From assembly GCA_031288835.1 (NCBI GenBank), contig JAITQO010000011.1, forward strand, positions 1-38,982: a stretch of 38,982 bases of DNA, written 5' to 3'. The position numbers were made by a program, and so were the translations under genes. The notes beneath the pieces were generated by a model, which saw nothing but the letters and a program-made list of their open reading frames with translations, was not told the origin of the DNA and searched no databases. Positions 1 through 34,407 of the stretch are shown piece after piece. Origin of the DNA: Rickettsiales bacterium. GTDB lineage: Bacteria > Pseudomonadota > Alphaproteobacteria > Rs-D84. Numbering within the stretch: position 1 is the first letter of the stretch; each line of letters starts with the position of its first letter.

Positions 1-4
1 CTGG

Positions 5-44
5 ATTCCGTTGTCGGCGCCATGCGGCGCCGCAACGGAATGAC
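5..44. repeat. REP-like palindrome (left copy)
   Basis: Imperfect palindrome with outer arms attccgttg (5-13) and caacggaat (33-41) and GC-rich inner arms ggcgcc. The same element, inverted, is at 2390-2432, and degenerate relatives occur near 26890 and 28870. It is a dispersed extragenic palindrome, not coding. Confidence 0.75.
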
Positions 45-53
45 GATTTGTCG

Positions 54-188
54 GCTCGAACAAAGTTTTTGCGTGCAGAATTAAAAGACCCTATTCCCGC
101 CTTCGCGGGAATGACAAGGAGAGAAGAGCGGGAATGACAAGGAGAGAAGAGCGGGAATGACAAGTATAAAAAGTGGCGGAAAGACAAG
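54..188 (+). repeat. Left arm of inverted repeat flanking the DGR module
   Basis: This stretch reappears in inverted orientation at 1978-2088. Both copies share gctcgaaca, a ttttgc segment, ttaaaagaccctattcccgc, a cgaagg palindrome and the end aagtataaaaagtggcgga. The left arm contains about 2.5 tandem copies of a 23-bp unit starting at 105, 128 and 151; the right arm lacks one unit. The two arms enclose the 108-aa gene, the TR and the target gene, but not the reverse transcriptase. Confidence 0.8.
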
Positions 189-212
189 GGATAAGAAACA
201 AGGGACATATCC

Positions 213-539
213 CTATGAAAAAGACAGATACTTTTTGTTTCTTCTGGTGATTCTGGTCGAGAACGGAATATGGGACTGATAGGCCTTGATTTGCTTCATC
301 AGAACTTTCGAGCCGGTTATCATCATTCTGTTTCTTCCGTTCACCTTCAATTGCAAATACAGGCATTCCTCGCCCTCGTTCTTTTTGATTTTGGACGGGC
401 GGATTGCGAAATCCGTCACGACGACGTCTTTGTCGAGAATCTCTTCTATGCTGATTTTCTCACCCGGGAACGGGCCGCTTTCCGCAGCCGCGAAATCCGA
501 AAATCTTTGTATTTTTGTTTTTTTAAAAAACAACCACAT
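213..539 (-). CDS. Small basic protein beside the DGR template repeat, possible accessory factor
   Basis: The gene encodes 108 residues and starts at the ATG at 539, with an AAGGAG ribosome binding site 8 bases upstream. I do not recognise the family. The N-terminus is basic (FFKKTK). The middle alternates hydrophobic and polar residues (DVVVTDFAIRPSKIKK, LYLQLKVNG, RMMITGSKVL), like a small beta-barrel of the OB type. The C-terminus is again basic (RITRRNKKYLSFS). The net positive charge suggests nucleic-acid binding; this is inference. It lies 230 bp beyond the TR on the same strand as TR and target, so one transcript could carry all three. The four-helix DGR accessory protein Avd is about this length, but this predicted mostly-beta protein does not look like it. 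An unrelated passenger gene is the alternative. Confidence 0.7.
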   Translation of the reverse strand: MWLFFKKTKIQRFSDFAAAESGPFPGEKISIEEILDKDVVVTDFAIRPSKIKKNEGEECLYLQLKVNGRNRMMITGSKVLMKQIKAYQSHIPFSTRITRRNKKYLSFS

Positions 540-769
540 ATGGCTTTCTCCTTGTTTAATTAAACCGCCTGGCGTTCGACGGGCGCGGGACGCCCCTGCC
601 TACATTGGCCAGACGGAATCACAGAGCGCTTTTTCCCCGCGCGGATTCGCCGCGCAAAGACAGACATGCCGCCCTGGCCTTGTTAAAAAACAATGCATTT
701 GTTCCCATTCTTTGTCGCGCATAGTTCAGCTGTGTTCTGCAAAACCTGAGGTCCTGTGAAACAAGGATT

Positions 770-906
770 GGCAGCGCGAGGACGGCGGAGCGAGCGCACG
801 AATTGTTCGTGCCGTTCTGAACGCAATTCGCGCAGTTGTTCGCGCAGTTGTTCGCGCAATTAGCCGCCGACGAATTCGTGTTCTCGAACACCCAAGACCC
901 GCCAAG
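770..906 (-). repeat. DGR template repeat (TR)
   Basis: 137-bp repeat matching 1360-1496 at 122 positions. The 15 mismatches are at 803, 804, 806, 815, 816, 818, 828, 848, 852, 860, 861, 875, 876, 882 and 884. Every one is T on the + strand of this copy (A on the - strand) and C, A or G in the other copy. On the - strand this copy reads GGSWVFENTNSSAANC and then CANN repeats, rich in AAC/AAT codons, which can mutate at A without producing stop codons. Of 26 adenines on the - strand, 15 are changed in the VR. The first 30 bases on the + side (the 3' end in coding sense) hold no A to mutate and are identical, as expected for the priming end. The direction of information flow follows from this asymmetry. 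Confidence 0.95.
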
Positions 907-1355
907 CCAGAGGCCCCCCGCATTACGGGCAACATGACTGGTTCGGCGGCCGCCGCGCGGGTTTGCCGCGCGCGCCGCAGAACGGGATATGCGAAAAAAC
1001 ATAAACGGCGACGGCAAGGCGATATATTCGCGCCGCCGCGGACAGTTTTCCCGACTTAAAATCTTTTTTGTTTTATCCATTCTTCTCTCTCATCTTCAAC
1101 TTGCGCCGCCCCTTGACGAAACAATTTTTTCCGCAGGGGGGCACGCCCCCCTGCACCCCCTTCGCATTTTCTCCGACGCCCTTTTTTTCTCCCTGGGGGA
1201 AGGGGTAACCGCCCCTTCCCCCAGACCCCTTTCCCCTGCGCGCCCCTCGCTACAATGCCGCTACGCGACATTTTCGCTCGCGTTCCGTTTTATGACACCT
1301 GCGCCGCTTCGGCTACGCCTCCCGCGGCGCGTCCGGTGTCATAAAACGGCAAGGC
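907..1355. other. Non-coding spacer between TR and target gene, with strong GC hairpins
   Basis: No convincing gene; the open frames here have no ribosome binding site and odd composition. There are two perfect hairpins. The first has 9-bp arms, gcagggggg (1133-1141) and cccccctgc (1146-1154). The second has 13-bp arms, 1193-1205 and 1212-1224. A third and larger hairpin at 1285-1349 is listed separately. A similar G5/C5 hairpin followed by ccccctt occurs at 24529-24560, so the first may be a dispersed element. Confidence 0.6.
1285..1349 (-). other. Long hairpin 10 bp past the VR (DGR target-site hairpin or terminator)
   Basis: Perfect 15-bp arms ccgttttatgacacc (1285-1299) and ggtgtcataaaacgg (1335-1349), then a small internal loop, then a 7-bp inner stem gcgccgc/gcggcgc (1301-1307, 1324-1330) around a 16-base loop. 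In the coding direction it starts 10 bp after the VR ends. In characterised DGRs an inverted repeat just downstream of the VR marks the site that receives cDNA. No comparable hairpin follows the TR. It could also serve as the transcription terminator of the target gene, although no clear U-run follows. Confidence 0.75.
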
Positions 1356-1841
1356 CTAGGGCAGCGCGAGGACGGCGGAGCGAGCGCACGAACCGTACGT
1401 GCCGAGCAGAACGCAATACGCGCAGTTGTTCGCGCAGCTGTACGCGCAAGGAGCCGCCGACGAAGACGTGTACACGAACACCCAAGACCCGCCAAGGTTC
1501 GGACTCGTCATTCTACACCAGCAGTTTACGTTGCTGGCTAACGTGCTTGATGGCCACATAACATTATTTGTTGATGTAGTGCCCGTATCATCAGTGCACT
1601 GCGACATGCCGCTAACTGTATGTTTTACCCCAGAACTGCCTTCATCAGATGTTACAGACCATGTTCCGATTTCCGCAGAACTTCCATAACTTGATACCGC
1701 GGCATAGGTCGAGTTAGACAACGTCCCGCTCTTGTTCTTCCAAGCCGCCAGCCAGTCAAGCTGGCACAGTTTTGCCGCAGGGGCGGCGCCCGCAATTAAC
1801 GCAAATGTTAAAGTCGAAATGAATATCCGAGTCGGTTTCAT
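1356..1841 (-). CDS. DGR target protein: secreted, Cys-rich, with diversified C-terminus
   Basis: The gene encodes 161 residues. I place the start at 1841 because GGGAG lies about 9 bases upstream, a promoter lies at 1869-1898, and the product then opens with a signal peptide (MKPTRIFISTLTFALIAGAAPAA, residues 1-23). The upstream ATG at 1898 falls inside the -35 box. The mature part has LCQLDWLAAW near its start, a Ser/Thr/Gly-rich middle, then NCWCRMTSP before the variable segment. Residues 116-161 are the VR: GGSWVF, then Cys-Ala pairs every four residues (CAYSCANNCAYC), ending two bases past the VR at TAG. Compared with the TR, 11 residues differ (E to V, Q to L, and Asn to Tyr, Ser, Pro, Leu or Gly). 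GGSW resembles the start of variable segments in C-type-lectin DGR proteins, but the CAxx repeat does not. The product is probably exported and surface-facing; its ligand is unknown. Confidence 0.92.
   Translation of the reverse strand: MKPTRIFISTLTFALIAGAAPAAKLCQLDWLAAWKNKSGTLSNSTYAAVSSYGSSAEIGTWSVTSDEGSSGVKHTVSGMSQCTDDTGTTSTNNVMWPSSTLASNVNCWCRMTSPNLGGSWVFVYTSSSAAPCAYSCANNCAYCVLLGTYGSCARSAVLALP
1360..1496 (-). repeat. DGR variable repeat (VR)
   Basis: Copy of the 770-906 template, offset exactly 590 bp, with no gaps and 15 substitutions, all opposite template adenines (coding strand). It fills the last 46 codons of the target gene, ending one base before the stop codon. Outside 1360-1496 the similarity to the TR flanks stops abruptly on both sides. 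Confidence 0.95.
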
Positions 1842-2325: not shown

Positions 2326-2389
2326 GGTGCCGCCATAAATCCCCGCCATTCCGGCGAGACCTGCCAAATGGCGGGAACATCCTCTCCAC

Positions 2390-2432
2390 GTCATTCCGTT
2401 GCGGCGCCGCAGGGCGCCGACAACGGAATGAC
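2390..2432. repeat. REP-like palindrome (right copy)
   Basis: Arms gtcattccgttg (2390-2401) and caacggaatgac (2421-2432) around inner arms cggcgcc/ggcgccg. Inverted relative to the copy at 5-44. Confidence 0.75.
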
Positions 2433-2537: not shown

Positions 2538-3566
2538 ATGAAAACCCACAAATCCCTTTGGGAACTGCTCGTATCCCGCGAAAACTTCGACCTCGCCGGC
2601 ACGCGCGCCCTGAAGCATAAAAAGAAAACCAGAGAAATACAAAGATTCCTCGACAATCGGGAGGAGTTGACGGAACGCCTGAGGCTGTCGGTTCGGGACG
2701 GCCTTTTCACCACGTCCCAATACCGCGTCAAGACGATTCACGAGCCGAAAAAACGCGAGATTTACATCCTTCCATTCTACCCAGACCGAATCGTCCACCA
2801 CGCCATCATGAACGTTCTTATCCCCATTTGGGACAAGATGTTCATTTCGGATTCCTACGCCTGCAGGCCGGGCAGAGGCATTCATTCCGCCAGCCGCAGA
2901 TGCATGCAGTTCGTTCGCCGGAACAAATACTTCCTGCAATGCGACGTCAGAAAATTTTACCCGTCGATAAATCACCGCATCATGCTGGACTTGATATCGC
3001 ACAAAGTCAGGGATAAAAAACTGATGCGCCTGATTGAAAACATCATTCATTCCGTCGACGGCGACACGAATATGCCGATCGGAAACTTTTGCAGCCAATG
3101 GTTCGGAAACCTTTACCTGCACAGTCTGGACATGTTCGTAAAGCATGAATTGAAATGCCGGGACTATCTGCGGTATTGCGACGATTTCTGCCTGTTCTCC
3201 GACGACAAGGGCGAATTGCGCGAATGGCTTGGAAAAATGCGGGCGTTCCTGTCCGACAAACTGCGGCTGTCGTTCTCATACGCCGAGGTTTCCCCGGGCG
3301 CCGGCGGCGTCGATTTCTTGGGCTATAGGCATTTCCTCGACTGCGTTAAACTGAGAAAGTCCACGTTCTTCAGAATCCGCAAGCGGCTGAAACGGATTCT
3401 TTCAATTCCGGCCGAATCGCGCATGCAGGACAAACGGGTCATCGGACAAATCGGCTCTATGCACGGATGGCTGAAACACGCGCGCAGCAATATCAGAATA
3501 CATGCAATAATGGACGAGGAAAAAGGGACGAAAGCGACAAGCGATAAGATACAAGCGGCTGGTTAA
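2538..3566 (+). CDS. DGR-type reverse transcriptase
   Basis: The gene encodes 342 residues; the ATG at 2538 has GGAG 7 bases upstream. It would copy the TR transcript into cDNA, misreading template adenines, for transfer into the VR. The RT core is complete: QCDVRKFYPSI with the first catalytic Asp at residue 136, motif 4 IGNFCSQ (181-187), catalytic YCDD (213-216), and GVDFLGYRHF (257-266). The Ser-Gln in motif 4, where group II intron RTs have Gln-Gly, is typical of DGR enzymes. The short C-terminus has no maturase or HNH domain, and no retron msr/msd RNA is apparent. The gene is divergent from the TR and target, about 1.6 kb from the TR, which departs from the common layout where TR lies next to and co-oriented with the RT. 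No avd gene is seen. Confidence 0.93.
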   Translation: MKTHKSLWELLVSRENFDLAGTRALKHKKKTREIQRFLDNREELTERLRLSVRDGLFTTSQYRVKTIHEPKKREIYILPFYPDRIVHHAIMNVLIPIWDKMFISDSYACRPGRGIHSASRRCMQFVRRNKYFLQCDVRKFYPSINHRIMLDLISHKVRDKKLMRLIENIIHSVDGDTNMPIGNFCSQWFGNLYLHSLDMFVKHELKCRDYLRYCDDFCLFSDDKGELREWLGKMRAFLSDKLRLSFSYAEVSPGAGGVDFLGYRHFLDCVKLRKSTFFRIRKRLKRILSIPAESRMQDKRVIGQIGSMHGWLKHARSNIRIHAIMDEEKGTKATSDKIQAAG

Positions 3567-21773: not shown

Positions 21774-23483
21774 CTATTTCTTGCCGCCGCTATTCAGCTC
21801 GGCAATTTTTTGCTGGAATATCTGCGTCAATTCATCAAAACTGCTCATAAATGTTTGCTCATCCTGCGTTTCGATATCCGTACTTCCTGACTTGCTCCAT
21901 TTTATCTCTTCCTTCAGCAAATCCGCGGCGTCATTCAGCGCCTTTGCCGCATCATCAAGCGCAGAGCCCAGTTCCGCCGCATTCTGTGAATTCAGCGCGC
22001 TTTGCATCGCCGTGCCCAATGCGGAAGCCGCGTTCTGCAACCCTTTATTTTCGGATATCGCATTCTGCATCGCCGCAATCAGCGCGGACGCGGCATTTTT
22101 CAAGTCATTGTTTTGCGTCAATTCCTTGAACATCACATCGCTGTTGTTTCCTGATATGGTTTTCTTTAAATTCGCCACGCTGCTCTTCAATGCGGTCGCG
22201 GCGGATTTCAACTGAGAGTTGCTGTTCGCTTTCACGGCATTCGTGGCGTCGTTCAGCGCCCTTATCACCTTGTCCGCGGACGAGTTTACTTTGTCTTCCG
22301 CTTTATCTATGGCTTTCTGCTCGGCTTTTTTCGCACTATCCTGCTCCTTATTCAATTTATCCACGACATCCTGTATATTTTTCTGAACGCCGTCCGTTAT
22401 TCCGTCGTAATTCCCGCAGAGCTGGTCGACATCTTCGGAAAAAAACTTTTGACTACCAAGGTCATAACCCCTATTGTTTGTAAAATCGCTTTCAATATCA
22501 AACATTTTATTATTGCACTCGTCAACCAAATCCTGGCCGCGGGAAATAATGTCGCCAATCCTGTCGTTTACGCTGCCATTGTTCTTATTCAGCGCTTTCT
22601 TTTCCAATTCGTCGAATTTTTTCCGAATTTCTTTTCTCAATGCCTCATACTGCTTTTTGTATTCCGCCTGATATGCCTTATCGGCATCGGATTGGGTCTT
22701 CACGGCCGCACTACCAGAATTTGCGCCGCTTGTATTAGCGGCCGCAGGACGTGAGGCAGAAGATTGTGCGACGCATTTTGTTCCATCCCAAATTTTCGTG
22801 TTGTCTTTGCAATAGCATTTCCCTGCGACTGTTCCGTCATTTACATGTGTTGCTTCTCCCCTCAATTGCGCATCTATACAATTTCGATATGGCTCCACTG
22901 CATCAGCAGTGGCCGTCTCACGCTGTTGATTTTGATTCGCCCGGCTTGAAAGGGCGGGGGCTGCGGATTGCGACCTGGGCGTTGGCTGATTGCCACCGGA
23001 CGGCGCAGCCCTATCTTCGCAAAGCTTCCGCAAATCATTGTTCATCTGATTTTCGTCGATACCGCCCCTGCGGCGGCAAGTTACCGAAGGAGGATTGCTA
23101 TCGCAATTGATGGTCGCCTCGTTCAGTCCGCAATATTTGTCAAGAAAATCTGTCGAAGACATCGCTTGGGCGGGGCGGACGGCGGTATCCGCACCCGATA
23201 TAACCGCCGGAACGGATACAGGCGACGAAGATTCCGGCTCCCATTCTTTACAACATGTCACCGTCGGCGGAGTTCCATTGACCAATGCCCATTCCAAATA
23301 TCCCTTGTCTTTGCAAAATTCGATTGCCAAACTCCTGCGTTCCGTCAGACTAGGAGCCGTGCGAATCTCCGCCGGCACACTCGCAACGTTAAAATACTGC
23401 GAATCCAGGCAGTTCCTACCGAACGAAACCGACGGGAAAACCACAATGGCCGACACAATAAAAAATCCGACGGATTTTCTCAT
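21774..23483 (-). CDS. Secreted Cys-rich, coiled-coil protein
   Basis: 569 residues with a signal peptide (MRKSVGFFIVSAIVVFPSVS). The N-terminal half has three Cys-rich segments: about 25-80 ending TVTCCKEW, about 115-160 with TINCDSNPPSVTCRRR, and about 205-245 with GKCYCKDNTKIWDGTKC, which looks like a small disulfide knot. Ser/Ala/Gln-rich linkers separate them. From about 275 it is a long Lys/Glu/Ala coiled coil, with loosely repeated units near the end (NAASALIAAMQNA, NAASALGTAMQSA). No anchor is seen. Family unrecognised; probably periplasmic or surface. A perfect -10 box with extended TGC (TATAAT, complement of 23498-23503) lies just upstream. Confidence 0.8.
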   Translation of the reverse strand: MRKSVGFFIVSAIVVFPSVSFGRNCLDSQYFNVASVPAEIRTAPSLTERRSLAIEFCKDKGYLEWALVNGTPPTVTCCKEWEPESSSPVSVPAVISGADTAVRPAQAMSSTDFLDKYCGLNEATINCDSNPPSVTCRRRGGIDENQMNNDLRKLCEDRAAPSGGNQPTPRSQSAAPALSSRANQNQQRETATADAVEPYRNCIDAQLRGEATHVNDGTVAGKCYCKDNTKIWDGTKCVAQSSASRPAAANTSGANSGSAAVKTQSDADKAYQAEYKKQYEALRKEIRKKFDELEKKALNKNNGSVNDRIGDIISRGQDLVDECNNKMFDIESDFTNNRGYDLGSQKFFSEDVDQLCGNYDGITDGVQKNIQDVVDKLNKEQDSAKKAEQKAIDKAEDKVNSSADKVIRALNDATNAVKANSNSQLKSAATALKSSVANLKKTISGNNSDVMFKELTQNNDLKNAASALIAAMQNAISENKGLQNAASALGTAMQSALNSQNAAELGSALDDAAKALNDAADLLKEEIKWSKSGSTDIETQDEQTFMSSFDELTQIFQQKIAELNSGGKK

Positions 23484-26946: not shown

Positions 26947-27570
26947 TCATATGCAAGCTCCGGCGGCGCTGGCGACAGTATAATCTTTGACACATTTTAA
27001 ACCTTCAACATTGCAGGCTGCTTCTACTTGGGCTGCTACTCCTACAGACGACTTATAAATTACTGCGGCTCTCTCGCAATCGACTATCTTTTTGATGCTA
27101 TTACAAGCTTTTTCCCAAGAAGCACAATCAGTTACCGTTATCGCTGGAACAACCGTATCCGGCAGACGCAGGTTCCATTGGACATAGTATTCTTTCAACG
27201 TCTTTACCTTACCATTTTTTCCAAATGCAACTTTTTCCAAATTATTCCCTACGCGACATTGTATATTATTATGTTCAACAAACGCTGTAATCGCCGTTGC
27301 CACTCCGCCGACACCAAGACCGATGGCGCCGCCAAGTGCTGCACCAGCAAGCTTACCCATTCCATTTTCCTCATCCATCATCTCTATAAGTTTTGCATTA
27401 GTTATAACTACTTCCATCGGTGTTGCTGGTGCTGAGCTCACCGGTGATGGTGCTAACACTACTGCTTCTTCTGCTGTTGATTCTCCCTCGTCTTGCGCCA
27501 TAACATTCGATAAACTAACAAAACCGAACGCAAACAACATTACAAAAAATCCATAAACTATTTTTTTCAT
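26947..27570 (-). CDS. Secreted protein with glycine-zipper segment
   Basis: 207 residues with a signal peptide (MKKIVYGFFVMLFAFGFVSL, cleavage near AQDE). A glycine-zipper hydrophobic stretch, GKLAGAALGGAIGLGVGGVA (about 73-92), could insert in a membrane. The C-terminal part has six Cys residues, including CRVGN, DCASWEKACNSIKKIVDC and CNVEGLKC, likely forming disulfides in the periplasm. Family unknown. It follows the 393/386-aa gene by 40 bp, and both have a Gly-zipper and a Cys-rich tail, so they may be partners. Confidence 0.78.
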   Translation of the reverse strand: MKKIVYGFFVMLFAFGFVSLSNVMAQDEGESTAEEAVVLAPSPVSSAPATPMEVVITNAKLIEMMDEENGMGKLAGAALGGAIGLGVGGVATAITAFVEHNNIQCRVGNNLEKVAFGKNGKVKTLKEYYVQWNLRLPDTVVPAITVTDCASWEKACNSIKKIVDCERAAVIYKSSVGVAAQVEAACNVEGLKCVKDYTVASAAGACI

Positions 27571-27610
27571 ATATTAATCCTTTCTAGAAAACTGTTTAAA
27601 AACCAACCTT

Positions 27611-28771
27611 TCATTTACTACTCGTCAATAAACCACCCGCCGAATTGACTCCCTTGATAAAAATACGACAACTATCCACAGAACTAACATCATCACTTCT
27701 GCCTAATTTTTTTAATGCCTTTGCTAAGACATCACGATATTCTTTCTCTTGGCAATTCGATATATTCAGACTCGTATCAACTTTTTTATTAGACGCTAAC
27801 GCACCAACAGTGGCACCGACTACCGTCCCTCCGCCAATACCAACCACCGCCATTGTTGATGTGGCATTCATCAGGTTAAACCCAAACAATTCCTTGGCAC
27901 ATTTAAACAATTCACCAGCAGATTTCCATACTTCTGCTTTTTGTTTATCACCAGCCGCCCCCCACAACCATTCGTTCGTTATTGCACAATCTTCGTCGCC
28001 ACTACTTGTTCCTTTTCCGCCCGCAACAGCAGCAAGGTAGCCGGTAGCTCCTGTATTGCATGCCGCAATACGAACCTGACAATCACCCTCTGTCGCATCC
28101 CAACGCGCATATCTTCCTCTAGCAGTGTCACTGTCTGGCATATACCCCAGTTGCTCTTCGCTACCTTCATCGGCGATGCTTTCAAATGACGACCCACTTG
28201 TATTCTTATCTATCAGCATACAGGTATTTTCTGCCTGATTTGGCGTCAATCCTGTCCTTCTCAAAACAAACGCATAATATGATGGCTGAATGATGCGCGA
28301 GTTAAAGTCAATCCATACATCGCCTTTTCCATTATATGCATTCTTTCCATCCAAACGCTTCGCATCATGTATGCACTTCTCAATCTGACCACCACACAAA
28401 TTCATCCCGCTTATGACATTGTTACGCATATCACTATTATACATTGCCCTAATTCCTTTCGGCAATGCCCCCTCGACACAGATTTGCAAATCTTCCATGC
28501 AATTGTCGATGCTGTATGCCGGGGCGGTCGTCGTCGCCGCCGGAGTGGTCGTGGTTCCGCCTATCACGCCGCCCATGCCGCTCACCGTCGGCATGCGCAA
28601 CCCGGTCTGCGCGGCCGTCGCCGTCGGCGCCGCGGCCACCACGCCGACAATGCCGACGCGCGCGGAATCTCCGCCGCGGCCCGTCGGCTGATTTCCGCTG
28701 TAGGGAGCAGCAATTCCAGCCGACGCGAACAGCGTTCCAAGCGCGACAAACACATATAAAACTTTTCTCAT
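27611..28771 (-). CDS. Secreted Cys-rich protein with glycine-zipper segment
   Basis: 386 residues from ATG 28771 (MRKVLYVFVALGTLFASAGI), which puts the signal peptide at the very N-terminus; an ATG at 28792 adds seven residues. After a Gly/Ala/Thr-rich linker comes a Cys-rich domain (DNCMEDLQICVEGALPKGIR, NLCGGQIEKCIHDAK, EGDCQVRIAACNTGATGY), then ELFKCAKELFGFNLMNATST and a glycine zipper (VVGIGGGTVVGATVGALAS, about 312-330). A short helical tail with NCQEKEYRDVLAKALKKLG follows. Family unknown, layout like the 464-aa protein at 31877. The linker DNA is GC-rich and low-complexity. Confidence 0.78.
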   Translation of the reverse strand: MRKVLYVFVALGTLFASAGIAAPYSGNQPTGRGGDSARVGIVGVVAAAPTATAAQTGLRMPTVSGMGGVIGGTTTTPAATTTAPAYSIDNCMEDLQICVEGALPKGIRAMYNSDMRNNVISGMNLCGGQIEKCIHDAKRLDGKNAYNGKGDVWIDFNSRIIQPSYYAFVLRRTGLTPNQAENTCMLIDKNTSGSSFESIADEGSEEQLGYMPDSDTARGRYARWDATEGDCQVRIAACNTGATGYLAAVAGGKGTSSGDEDCAITNEWLWGAAGDKQKAEVWKSAGELFKCAKELFGFNLMNATSTMAVVGIGGGTVVGATVGALASNKKVDTSLNISNCQEKEYRDVLAKALKKLGRSDDVSSVDSCRIFIKGVNSAGGLLTSSK

Positions 28772-28849
28772 CTCACATGACCCCTTTGTCATTTGCGATT
28801 ATTGTATCATATTTTGCATGCAAAAAAAAGCGTTTTTTTCGTAATCCGC

Positions 28850-31876: not shown

Positions 31877-33271
31877 TCATTTATTTGCATCATCTTTCTT
31901 CGATTCCCCCTTCTTCACATCCTCTGTCTTAGATGCTTTTTTATTTGCATCCCCTGTCTTGGGTGCCTCCCCTTCTGAATCAATTCCTGGAGCAGCGGCG
32001 TTATCCTCAGCATTTTCTGCGGCCTTCGCCGTCTTGGCTACATCCATGGCGCGACCAATAGCGCCGCTTGTCAGCGCGCCGACCGCAACGCCAGCGCCCG
32101 CGCCAAGCGCCGCGCTCGACGCCGCGGTCTGGCTCCTCGTCAGACGATATGCGTTCTCCTTGAACGTCGTGATATCGATTCCAAATTCGTCCGGATTGCA
32201 TGCATAGGCGTCGTCGCCGTGCATTTTCTTTGATGAAAACTGCGTCGATTTCCCTTCGTAATCGGCAAACAATTCCACCGTATACACGCATTGCAGAGAC
32301 CGTTCGTCAAACATTCCGCTTCCTGATTTGCACATTCCGGCCATCCGCTCGCGCAGGTCATAAAGCGATTGTTCCCATTTCTGGATATTTTTTTCCAACT
32401 CCACGCGAAGGGTCGCGAACACCTCCATTGCCCTGGCCTGCAGTCCACTGTCCGCCGTCTGGCATTTCTTATACTCCTTTTCGCATGCGGAAACCGCCTT
32501 GTCTCCGCCCGCCTTTGCCCAGCATTTTTCATAGGACTTGGCGAATCCCTTGCAATCTGCGGGCATTTTCCCACGCGCGATGCACTTCGTGTATCCGTCG
32601 TCCCCGCATATGTCGCGTATGCAGTTGTTGTATGTCTTTCCGCAGTTCAGGGTTTCATTAAATCCGGCAAGCTCGGCGTTCATGTCGCGGTCTGCCTTGA
32701 TTTCAACGGACAGGTCGGCGAACTCCTCGCCCGTGCACTTCGTGTTGCGCCGGCATGAATCAATTTTCATACCCCAGTCGGTGTCGGAATCCAGAAAGCA
32801 CTTCGGCCAATCGGGACCTCCGCATTTTGTCGCCATGCAGTTGCGCAAGGCGTTGTCGCATTCGACGGCTGTGTCCTGCCCGATTTTCGCGTTCGCCGCC
32901 TTCAGCTGAGCAGCCCGGTTGTCCGCTTTGACCGCGAGCCCCAACTTTTCCTTTTGCTCGCGGATAGATTTTTGCAGCGGGGTCTCATCCGCGGCGGCTC
33001 CGCCCAGCGCGTCGCCGCCGAACCGCTCGGCGAACGACGACGACTTATTTTCGACGTCCAATTCGGGTTTGGTCTCTTCCTCAGCCGCCTCTTCGACCTC
33101 TTCTTCTTTCGGCTCTTCCTTCGCGGCTGCGGGCGCAACAGCCGATGCCACCTTCGACACAGCGACGCCGCGGCTGCCGGAAGCGGCGCTTCCGCGGCCG
33201 CGCACAGGCGCGGCAAACCCGTTGGAAAATCCGAATAGCAATATCAGAAAAAACAAAAACACTTTTTTCAC
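31877..33271 (-). CDS. Secreted Cys-rich protein with glycine zipper and charged tail
   Basis: 464 residues, GTG start at 33271 with GAAGG upstream. Signal peptide MKKVFLFFLILLFGFSNGFA, then an Ala/Glu-rich linker (60-75 almost entirely Glu, Lys, Ala). The Cys-rich domain holds many pairs, such as CDNALRNCMATKCGGPDWPK, CGKTYNNCIRDICGDDGYTK and CEKEYKKCQ. A helical section RVELEKNIQKWEQSLYDLRE precedes a glycine zipper (AALGAGAGVAVGALTSGAIG, about 388-407) and a highly charged Lys/Asp tail. Family unknown. It follows the 298-aa gene by 31 bp and shares its Cys spacing style, so the pair is likely one operon of envelope proteins. Confidence 0.8.
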   Translation of the reverse strand: MKKVFLFFLILLFGFSNGFAAPVRGRGSAASGSRGVAVSKVASAVAPAAAKEEPKEEEVEEAAEEETKPELDVENKSSSFAERFGGDALGGAAADETPLQKSIREQKEKLGLAVKADNRAAQLKAANAKIGQDTAVECDNALRNCMATKCGGPDWPKCFLDSDTDWGMKIDSCRRNTKCTGEEFADLSVEIKADRDMNAELAGFNETLNCGKTYNNCIRDICGDDGYTKCIARGKMPADCKGFAKSYEKCWAKAGGDKAVSACEKEYKKCQTADSGLQARAMEVFATLRVELEKNIQKWEQSLYDLRERMAGMCKSGSGMFDERSLQCVYTVELFADYEGKSTQFSSKKMHGDDAYACNPDEFGIDITTFKENAYRLTRSQTAASSAALGAGAGVAVGALTSGAIGRAMDVAKTAKAAENAEDNAAAPGIDSEGEAPKTGDANKKASKTEDVKKGESKKDDANK

Positions 33272-33302
33272 GCTAGGCCTTCATTTCCGTTTTTCATCCC
33301 TC

Positions 33303-34199
33303 TTACTTTAACCTATCGCACGCGATATCGACAAACTTGCACAAAGTGGCGGACATGATTTTTTCCTCGCCATCTCCGCACAGCCCGTTTTCATCCAATC
33401 CGTTCGGCAGGTTTCCGCACATTTCAAGAATGCACGCGTCCTTGCCGCCGTTGCAAATCCGGCTTGCCGCGGCCAGTTTTTCCTCACGCTCCATCCGGCG
33501 CAGTTTTACCAAGTCGCTCAGGCGGCTTTCTCTTTTCGCAACCATGTCGTCGCGCTGCTTTTTCATTTTGTCGCGCAAAGCCGTTACGAATTCACCGCAA
33601 CCCGCCGCCTCGACCGCGCAGGCGGAGAAATTACGGTTGAACTCGTCGTCCTCCTCGCACTTCAGCATGTTTCCATCGCACTTGCCCGCGGACAGCAGGC
33701 ACAGGGACAACTCCGCATTGCATTGGTCAGACGTTTTCTTGACGGCGGCCTTTTTCATTGACGACTCATAGTCGGAATCGCCGAGCGCGATTTTGCATGA
33801 CTGGTCAATCAATTTGTCATAGTTTTCGGTCGCGTCTTCGGGCGAGCAGTCCTTCAACTTCTTCACGCACTCGGCCGTTGCCCATTTGTATCTCTCGCCC
33901 GGGTCGGACGGCGCCTTTTTCAGGTCCTTGTCCGATATGGTGTTCTTCGACGACTTTCCGACCGACAAGGATTTCATCTCGGGCGTGTCGCCGAGCGCGT
34001 ATTTCTGTTTTTCCGGCCTCTTCGCCAAAGATGTCCCGCAATTATAGCAGCGCGAGCCGGAATCCATATCATCATGGCACGCGGAGTCAAGGCACTTTTG
34101 CAAGTCAGACACCTTGCATTTCGCGGCGAAACCGTGCGACGCGCACAACAGAACCAGCGCGAAAGCAATGCCGAAAAACTTTATTCTTCCTAAAAACAT
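33303..34199 (-). CDS. Secreted Cys-rich protein
   Basis: 298 residues from ATG 34199 (MFLGRIKFFGIAFALVLLCA), chosen because GAGAG precedes it and a signal peptide results; the longer frame to 34343 has no ribosome site. At least 15 Cys residues occur, for example CKVSDLQKCLDSACHDD, CYNCGTS, CNAELSLCLLSAGKCDGNML and CNGGKDACILEMCGNLP. The last resembles the CGGPDWPK/CGDDGYTK loops of the downstream 464-aa protein. A charged helix (KMKKQRDDMVAKRESRLSDL) precedes the C-terminal Cys cluster. Function unknown. Confidence 0.8.
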   Translation of the reverse strand: MFLGRIKFFGIAFALVLLCASHGFAAKCKVSDLQKCLDSACHDDMDSGSRCYNCGTSLAKRPEKQKYALGDTPEMKSLSVGKSSKNTISDKDLKKAPSDPGERYKWATAECVKKLKDCSPEDATENYDKLIDQSCKIALGDSDYESSMKKAAVKKTSDQCNAELSLCLLSAGKCDGNMLKCEEDDEFNRNFSACAVEAAGCGEFVTALRDKMKKQRDDMVAKRESRLSDLVKLRRMEREEKLAAASRICNGGKDACILEMCGNLPNGLDENGLCGDGEEKIMSATLCKFVDIACDRLK

Positions 34200-34244
34200 C
34201 TCTCTTTCGGAAATTATATCACAAAAGCGGCTTTTATATAAACA

Positions 34245-34275
34245 AAAAAATCCGCCAAAGACGGATTTTTTATAG
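34245..34275. terminator. Bidirectional terminator-like hairpin
   Basis: An A-run then aatccg, loop, cggatt and T-run (centre near 34259). It lies between the secreted-protein operon and the metallo-hydrolase and could terminate transcription arriving from either side. Confidence 0.6.
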
Positions 34276-34407
34276 TTCCGTTCCAGTGGGTCGTTTGGGG
34301 ACATTTGGGGGCGAACTGGGCTGTTTGGGTAGGGTTTGACCAACCTACCACTTTACCGCTTTGTTAGTATTTGAAGGCGTTTCAGGCCGTATTGGGACAG
34401 CGGAAAT

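Follow-up and report, generated by a model that had tools for sequence, protein, structure and literature searches.

A chromosomal diversity-generating retroelement with multiple targets, an inverted cassette and a candidate accessory protein in a Rickettsiales bacterium

In the diversity-generating retroelement (DGR) of Bordetella phage BPP-1, the reverse transcriptase (RT) requires the accessory protein Avd (PF22296), runs in the same direction as the template repeat (TR) and serves a single target. The differences between the TR and its variable repeat (VR) are adenine specific, the RT carries an SQ motif, a structured spacer follows the TR, and a hairpin lies behind the VR. The spacer recruits RT-Avd (PMC12875486), and efficient homing requires the hairpin (PMC3240598). 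A 2023 review gives the known DGR accessory types as Avd, HRDC and MSL (PMC10053308). In Treponema denticola, one RT and one TR serve two to seven distant targets of the FGE-sulfatase/C-type lectin kind, together with an HRDC accessory, and some genomes contain targets without an RT (PMC4891356). Inverted DGRs, in which the RT is encoded opposite to the strand that holds the TR, VR and target, are rare (PMC3521204; PMC6642488); examples are Group 4 of Schillinger 2012 (PMC3521204), from Shewanella, Vibrio and Photobacterium, whose RTs belong to a single cluster, and the G5 cassette of Yan 2019 (PMC6642488). Multiple or remote VRs, an inverted RT and adenine-specific change are all already known.

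Here we describe a locus of a Rickettsiales bacterium (Alphaproteobacteria; Rs-D84) whose anatomy is closest to that of the multi-target T. denticola DGR. The window, by which we mean the whole stretch of 38,982 nt that was analyzed, is contig JAITQO010000011.1 of assembly GCA_031288835.1, a draft genome of 789 kb in 16 contigs that is 83% complete. As in T. denticola, one RT and one TR are accompanied by several distant targets (six VR sites here), and some genomes have targets without an RT; here, however, the targets match no known family, the accessory candidate is an open reading frame designated ORF108, and the TR and RT lie on opposite strands. We consider it very probable that the locus is a chromosomal multi-target DGR in which the RT, probably with ORF108 for Avd, copies TR RNA with misincorporation at adenines, in which the VR is replaced in cis and at no fewer than five sites in trans, and in which part of the cassette was flipped with respect to the RT. 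An earlier note, made from the letters of the window, had described the TR/VR pair; what it missed is the RT (2538-3566, plus strand), the open reading frame at 213-539 (minus strand), the additional VRs outside this contig and the inversion of the cassette.

The TR (770-906, minus strand; 137 nt, with 26 adenines and 11 AAC/AAT codons in the target frame) and the VR (1360-1496, minus strand) at the 3' end of the target gene form an ungapped direct repeat with an offset of 590 and abrupt ends on both sides, exactly where the earlier note had placed them. Read from TR to VR, all 15 mismatches fall at minus-strand TR adenines (eight A>T, four A>C and three A>G); 15 of the 26 adenines and none of the 111 other bases are replaced, reproducing the claim that G, C and T are never affected. 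The chance of all 15 differences falling on A is 2.0e-13 (hypergeometric; 26 A in 137), and the criterion applied in DGR surveys is that at least 75% of TR/VR differences lie at TR adenines. Eleven codons are changed (142, 143, 145, 150, 153, 154, 161, 164, 165, 168 and 169 of a 180-codon frame) and none becomes a stop, in agreement with the 11 altered residues counted before. A>N cannot turn any TR codon into a stop, and about 2e15 proteins could be encoded through the 15 variable codons. Because the 3' ends of the TR and VR are identical, the IMH/IMH* difference of BPP-1 is absent here. A TR-like sequence (W-FNN-NS-A-NCANNCANNCANN) occurs at the same place in relatives.

The target gene (1356-1841, minus strand) encodes a 161-aa protein with an N-terminus that by inspection resembles a signal peptide and a Cys-rich C-terminal variable domain, the VR occupying the final 137 nt ahead of the stop codon. 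Searches of Pfam, NCBIfam, PHROG and the PDB returned no match for this protein. A C-type lectin fold was likewise not matched in Pfam or the PDB, the single-sequence AlphaFold model had a pLDDT of 40, and viral contigs contained no relatives to deepen the alignment. Elsewhere in the window, at 21774-23483, 26947-28792 and 31877-34343, the minus strand encodes a cluster of large, Cys-containing, secreted-looking proteins without obvious function.

Searching the draft genome with the TR identified five more VRs, each on a different contig outside the window, making six VR sites in total, which is a minimum because the genome is incomplete and many contig ends lie inside targets. In the VRs of contigs C3 and C6, 12 of 24 adenines are changed and none of 88 other bases (chance 6e-10), while those of C10, C12 and C11 are A-enriched (p 2e-5, 2e-7 and 6e-4) and show non-A drift as well. 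Three VRs (window, C3 and C6) are free of drift, and three have non-A changes. The C3 and C6 VRs occupy the same 119-nt contig end (C3:44343-44461 and C6:36796-36914 of this genome, G000), with 12 identical A substitutions but downstream flanks that are unrelated; the identity may stem from gene conversion, from a single retrohoming event that reached both sites or from merging by the assembler.

The targets form a paralogous family of small secreted Cys-rich proteins, new and without a match to a known fold, and the paralogous VRs display the A-directed pattern. A genome of the same genus (G003, 83% complete), in which neither RT nor ORF108 was found, carries, spread over several contigs, no fewer than nine VR genes as well as one more VR end. 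Pairwise differences among the nine at codon positions 1, 2 and 3 are 0.25, 0.25 and 0.10 inside the VR and 0.41, 0.35 and 0.50 upstream of it. This codon pattern is the inverse of that left by ordinary evolution, as AAC/AAT-directed rewriting predicts. Locus L089 of the same genome (G003:C17, 87-611) has an eight-codon insertion in its VR within CAxxCAxx repeats, the kind of change that template slippage would produce. Genomes G030 and G035 each hold 8-11 proteins related to the secreted family, of the NCWCKMTSPAVSRWVF type; no full-length RT of the window's lineage was found in them, and the copies may be former targets whose DGR has been lost. The diversified proteins are most likely surface or secreted binders.

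The RT gene (2538-3566, plus strand) encodes 342 aa in an intact frame, with the motif IGNFCSQ, which holds the SQ motif, and the catalytic YCDD. The protein matches phrog_1423 (E 2e-98), and among solved structures its best relative is 8ub7, the RT of the Bordetella phage DGR, at 147 bits; the top group II RT scores 72. A tree built from 55 RTs places it beside others from its genus (100/97, 99/95), within a lineage made up of 13 RTs of its own order and phage RTs, and the DGR RTs, this one included, are separate from two group II RTs (100/100). A group II intron RT was rejected as an identity: the motif is IGNFCSQ and not QGxxxSP, TIGR04416 scored 113 bits against a cutoff of 300, and there was no Rfam intron match. 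An Rfam search near the locus gave no credible match of any kind, and a search with the alpha_tmRNA model was negative. Searching a set of genome contigs with this RT yielded one distant locus, and an exact-peptide scan of IMG/VR for this RT yielded none. A second DGR RT lineage (YLDD/YMDD) accompanies A-biased repeats at L057 (G006:C25) and L059 (G016:C6); no ORF108 homologue was found beside the RT in this lineage (the second RT of G006 and the RT of G016).

Two putative cis elements resemble those of BPP-1. The spacer RNA between TR and ORF108 (614-750, minus strand) is predicted to form a closing helix and a stem-loop, with compensatory changes across eight sequences (the window and seven relatives). 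Double changes occur in 10 of 15 pairs; the observed covariation was reached in 0 of 500 shuffles, and it is clearly lost once the pairing partners are slid. About 10 nt behind the VR, an inverted repeat (1285-1349, minus strand) could form a hairpin or cruciform; DNA folding gives z -4.65 behind the VR and z +1.05 behind the TR. A sequence made up of the stop codon and GCCTTGCCGTTTYATGAC (1338-1358) recurs at VR ends of a sister genome, and in five same-genus genomes it occurs five times, each directly behind a VR. The hairpin is absent behind the other VRs of the window's own genome, including the two clean ones on C3 and C6, and so is not obligatory. With a DGR-type RT 1 kb away, the structured spacer, the post-VR hairpin and five more A-biased VRs, the earlier identification of the repeat pair as a DGR holds.

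ORF108 (213-539, minus strand, as the TR) encodes a conserved DGR-associated protein with a predicted OB-like fold; its homologues begin near residue 10, and an internal start is possible. Neither Pfam nor NCBIfam matches it, PHROG does so weakly, and we found no earlier description of the family in the literature searched. Homologues adjoin the RT throughout the window's order. Among 60 related genomes, ORF108 is present in 13 of the 14 with the window's RT lineage versus 1 of the 46 without it, the single exception being a fragment (Fisher 4e-11, with kinship among the 60 genomes ignored). In IMG/VR, a profile search picked out ORF108 on 41 contigs, of which at least 37 have a co-directional RT and 30 an A-biased TR/VR pair; these viral loci were gathered by ORF108, and RT adjacency there is conditioned on it. 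At L136, L137 and L138, the RT frame continues into ORF108 without a stop, forming an in-frame fusion, and the tail of L137 is 36% identical to ORF108. The archaeal virus ANMV-1 (PMC4372165) and Caudoviricetes vir525 also have a homologue directly behind the RT, annotated as hypothetical (AJP62065.1 and DBA35194.1), but these are viral elements, with a tail-type target or neighbours and all cassette genes on one strand.

BPP-1 has Avd (PF22296), whereas ORF108 gives no such match. No match to Avd (PF22296) or HRDC came from the 141 ORFs that surround the RT in 32 ORF108-type loci, with models that both detect control proteins, including BPP-1 Avd; searches of the window's genome with PF22296 and PF05635 gave weak negatives, the controls being silent too. 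An AlphaFold model of ORF108 built from 35 sequences (pLDDT 83.5) is beta-rich, with five strands and a helix after strand 3, a predicted topology that is OB-like. Neither profile searches nor Foldseek found a significant match in the PDB; weak Foldseek matches there included the OB-domain-bearing RuvB-like proteins, RPA and Pf3 SSB, and against viral models RT proteins came out on top with ssDNA-binding proteins lower. ORF108 thus looks like an unrecognized accessory that would stand in for Avd, and this accessory family, its RT fusions and the target family appear to be what is new here. We give even chances to the fuller proposal that it represents an undescribed accessory class, a nucleic-acid-binding protein of OB fold that takes Avd's place across a DGR lineage spanning the window's order, phages, archaeal viruses and some RT fusions, and that acts on TR RNA or single-stranded cDNA.

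As in the inverted DGRs described previously, the RT is on the plus strand and the TR, VR and target are on the minus strand. An inverted repeat of 41 nt with one mismatch (left arm 5-45, plus strand; right arm 2389-2429, minus strand) flanks the VR-TR-ORF108 block, and a second, longer pair has arms of 68 nt (81-148/1996-2063). Inverting the segment between the 41-nt arms would place VR, TR, ORF108 and RT on one strand, the order seen in relatives: TR-ORF108-RT lie on one strand in G004 (same genus), G018, G049, G024 and G006, with the VR ahead where visible, and G004, G018 and G049 have canonical VR-TR-RT cassettes with A-biased repeats. The inversion in the window appears to be a separate event in an otherwise co-oriented lineage. 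A dispersed repeat family (CCCTATTCCCGCCTTCGCGGGAATGACAAGG and neighbours; window 1-195 and 1926-2330) occurs at 57 places in the genome and is clustered around the cassette. Because of these 57 places, the inverted repeats were rejected as specific recombination sites; the repeats offer a route for inversion but no evidence of a switch. The VR-TR-ORF108 block was probably inverted via these dispersed inverted repeats.

Four competing readings were weighed. The first is ordinary gene duplication in which the C-terminal domain came under selection and the A bias is a coincidence. It would suit targets that are a paralogous secreted family; it does not account for a pattern with a chance of 2e-13, for the one-sided A pattern in further VRs, for third codon positions that are nearly frozen while the first and second vary, or for the adjacent DGR RT. 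We regard it as refuted because of the A-only asymmetry and the RT, and assign it a negligible probability. Another rival is a decayed DGR, a nonworking fossil of past retrohoming in which, for example, the inversion separated the TR from the RT transcript. Non-A changes in three of the six VRs speak for decay, as does an order inverted with respect to relatives with a readable cassette order, but the RT frame is intact with both motifs, three VRs lack drift, and inverted DGRs with all standard features have been reported (PMC3521204). We therefore consider decay unlikely. The earlier note had suggested recent activity and, taken as recency, this is borne out by zero drift in three VRs; recent use of the DGR is supported by this sequence pattern.

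That the inversion, or the identity of the C3 and C6 VRs, is an artefact of assembly seems about as unlikely as decay. The assembly graph used k=119, the repeats are short, and shared 119-mers stand at many contig ends, several inside target genes, with the window itself beginning at such a node; however, at 41 and 68 nt the arms fit within a single 119-nt k-mer, and collapse would not be expected. ORF108 might also be a passenger gene that lies outside the DGR, a reading to which its collection bias in the viral loci lends some room but which we find quite improbable in view of its tracking of the RT lineage (13/14 versus 1/46), its adjacent and co-directional position in at least 37 viral loci, the in-frame RT fusions and the RT proteins among its top viral Foldseek matches.

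Under the preferred reading, a multi-target DGR in recent use, we infer the mechanism and activity of the element and the roles of ORF108 and the targets from sequence. The minus-strand TR and its structured spacer would be transcribed, and the RT, probably with ORF108 instead of Avd as its partner, would copy the TR RNA and misincorporate at adenines. The resulting mutated cDNA would overwrite the target gene's terminal VR and, acting in trans, those at five or more sites elsewhere in the genome. A single RT-TR transcript is impossible because the RT is on the opposite strand; with the VR-TR-ORF108 block inverted, TR and RT would be transcribed apart. If ORF108 acts as proposed, mutagenic retrohoming can run with a partner other than Avd, and the family would offer a second system in which to address cDNA priming, protection and delivery. 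For the organism itself, the locus would mean that in a reduced-genome bacterium one TR diversifies a whole family of secreted proteins.
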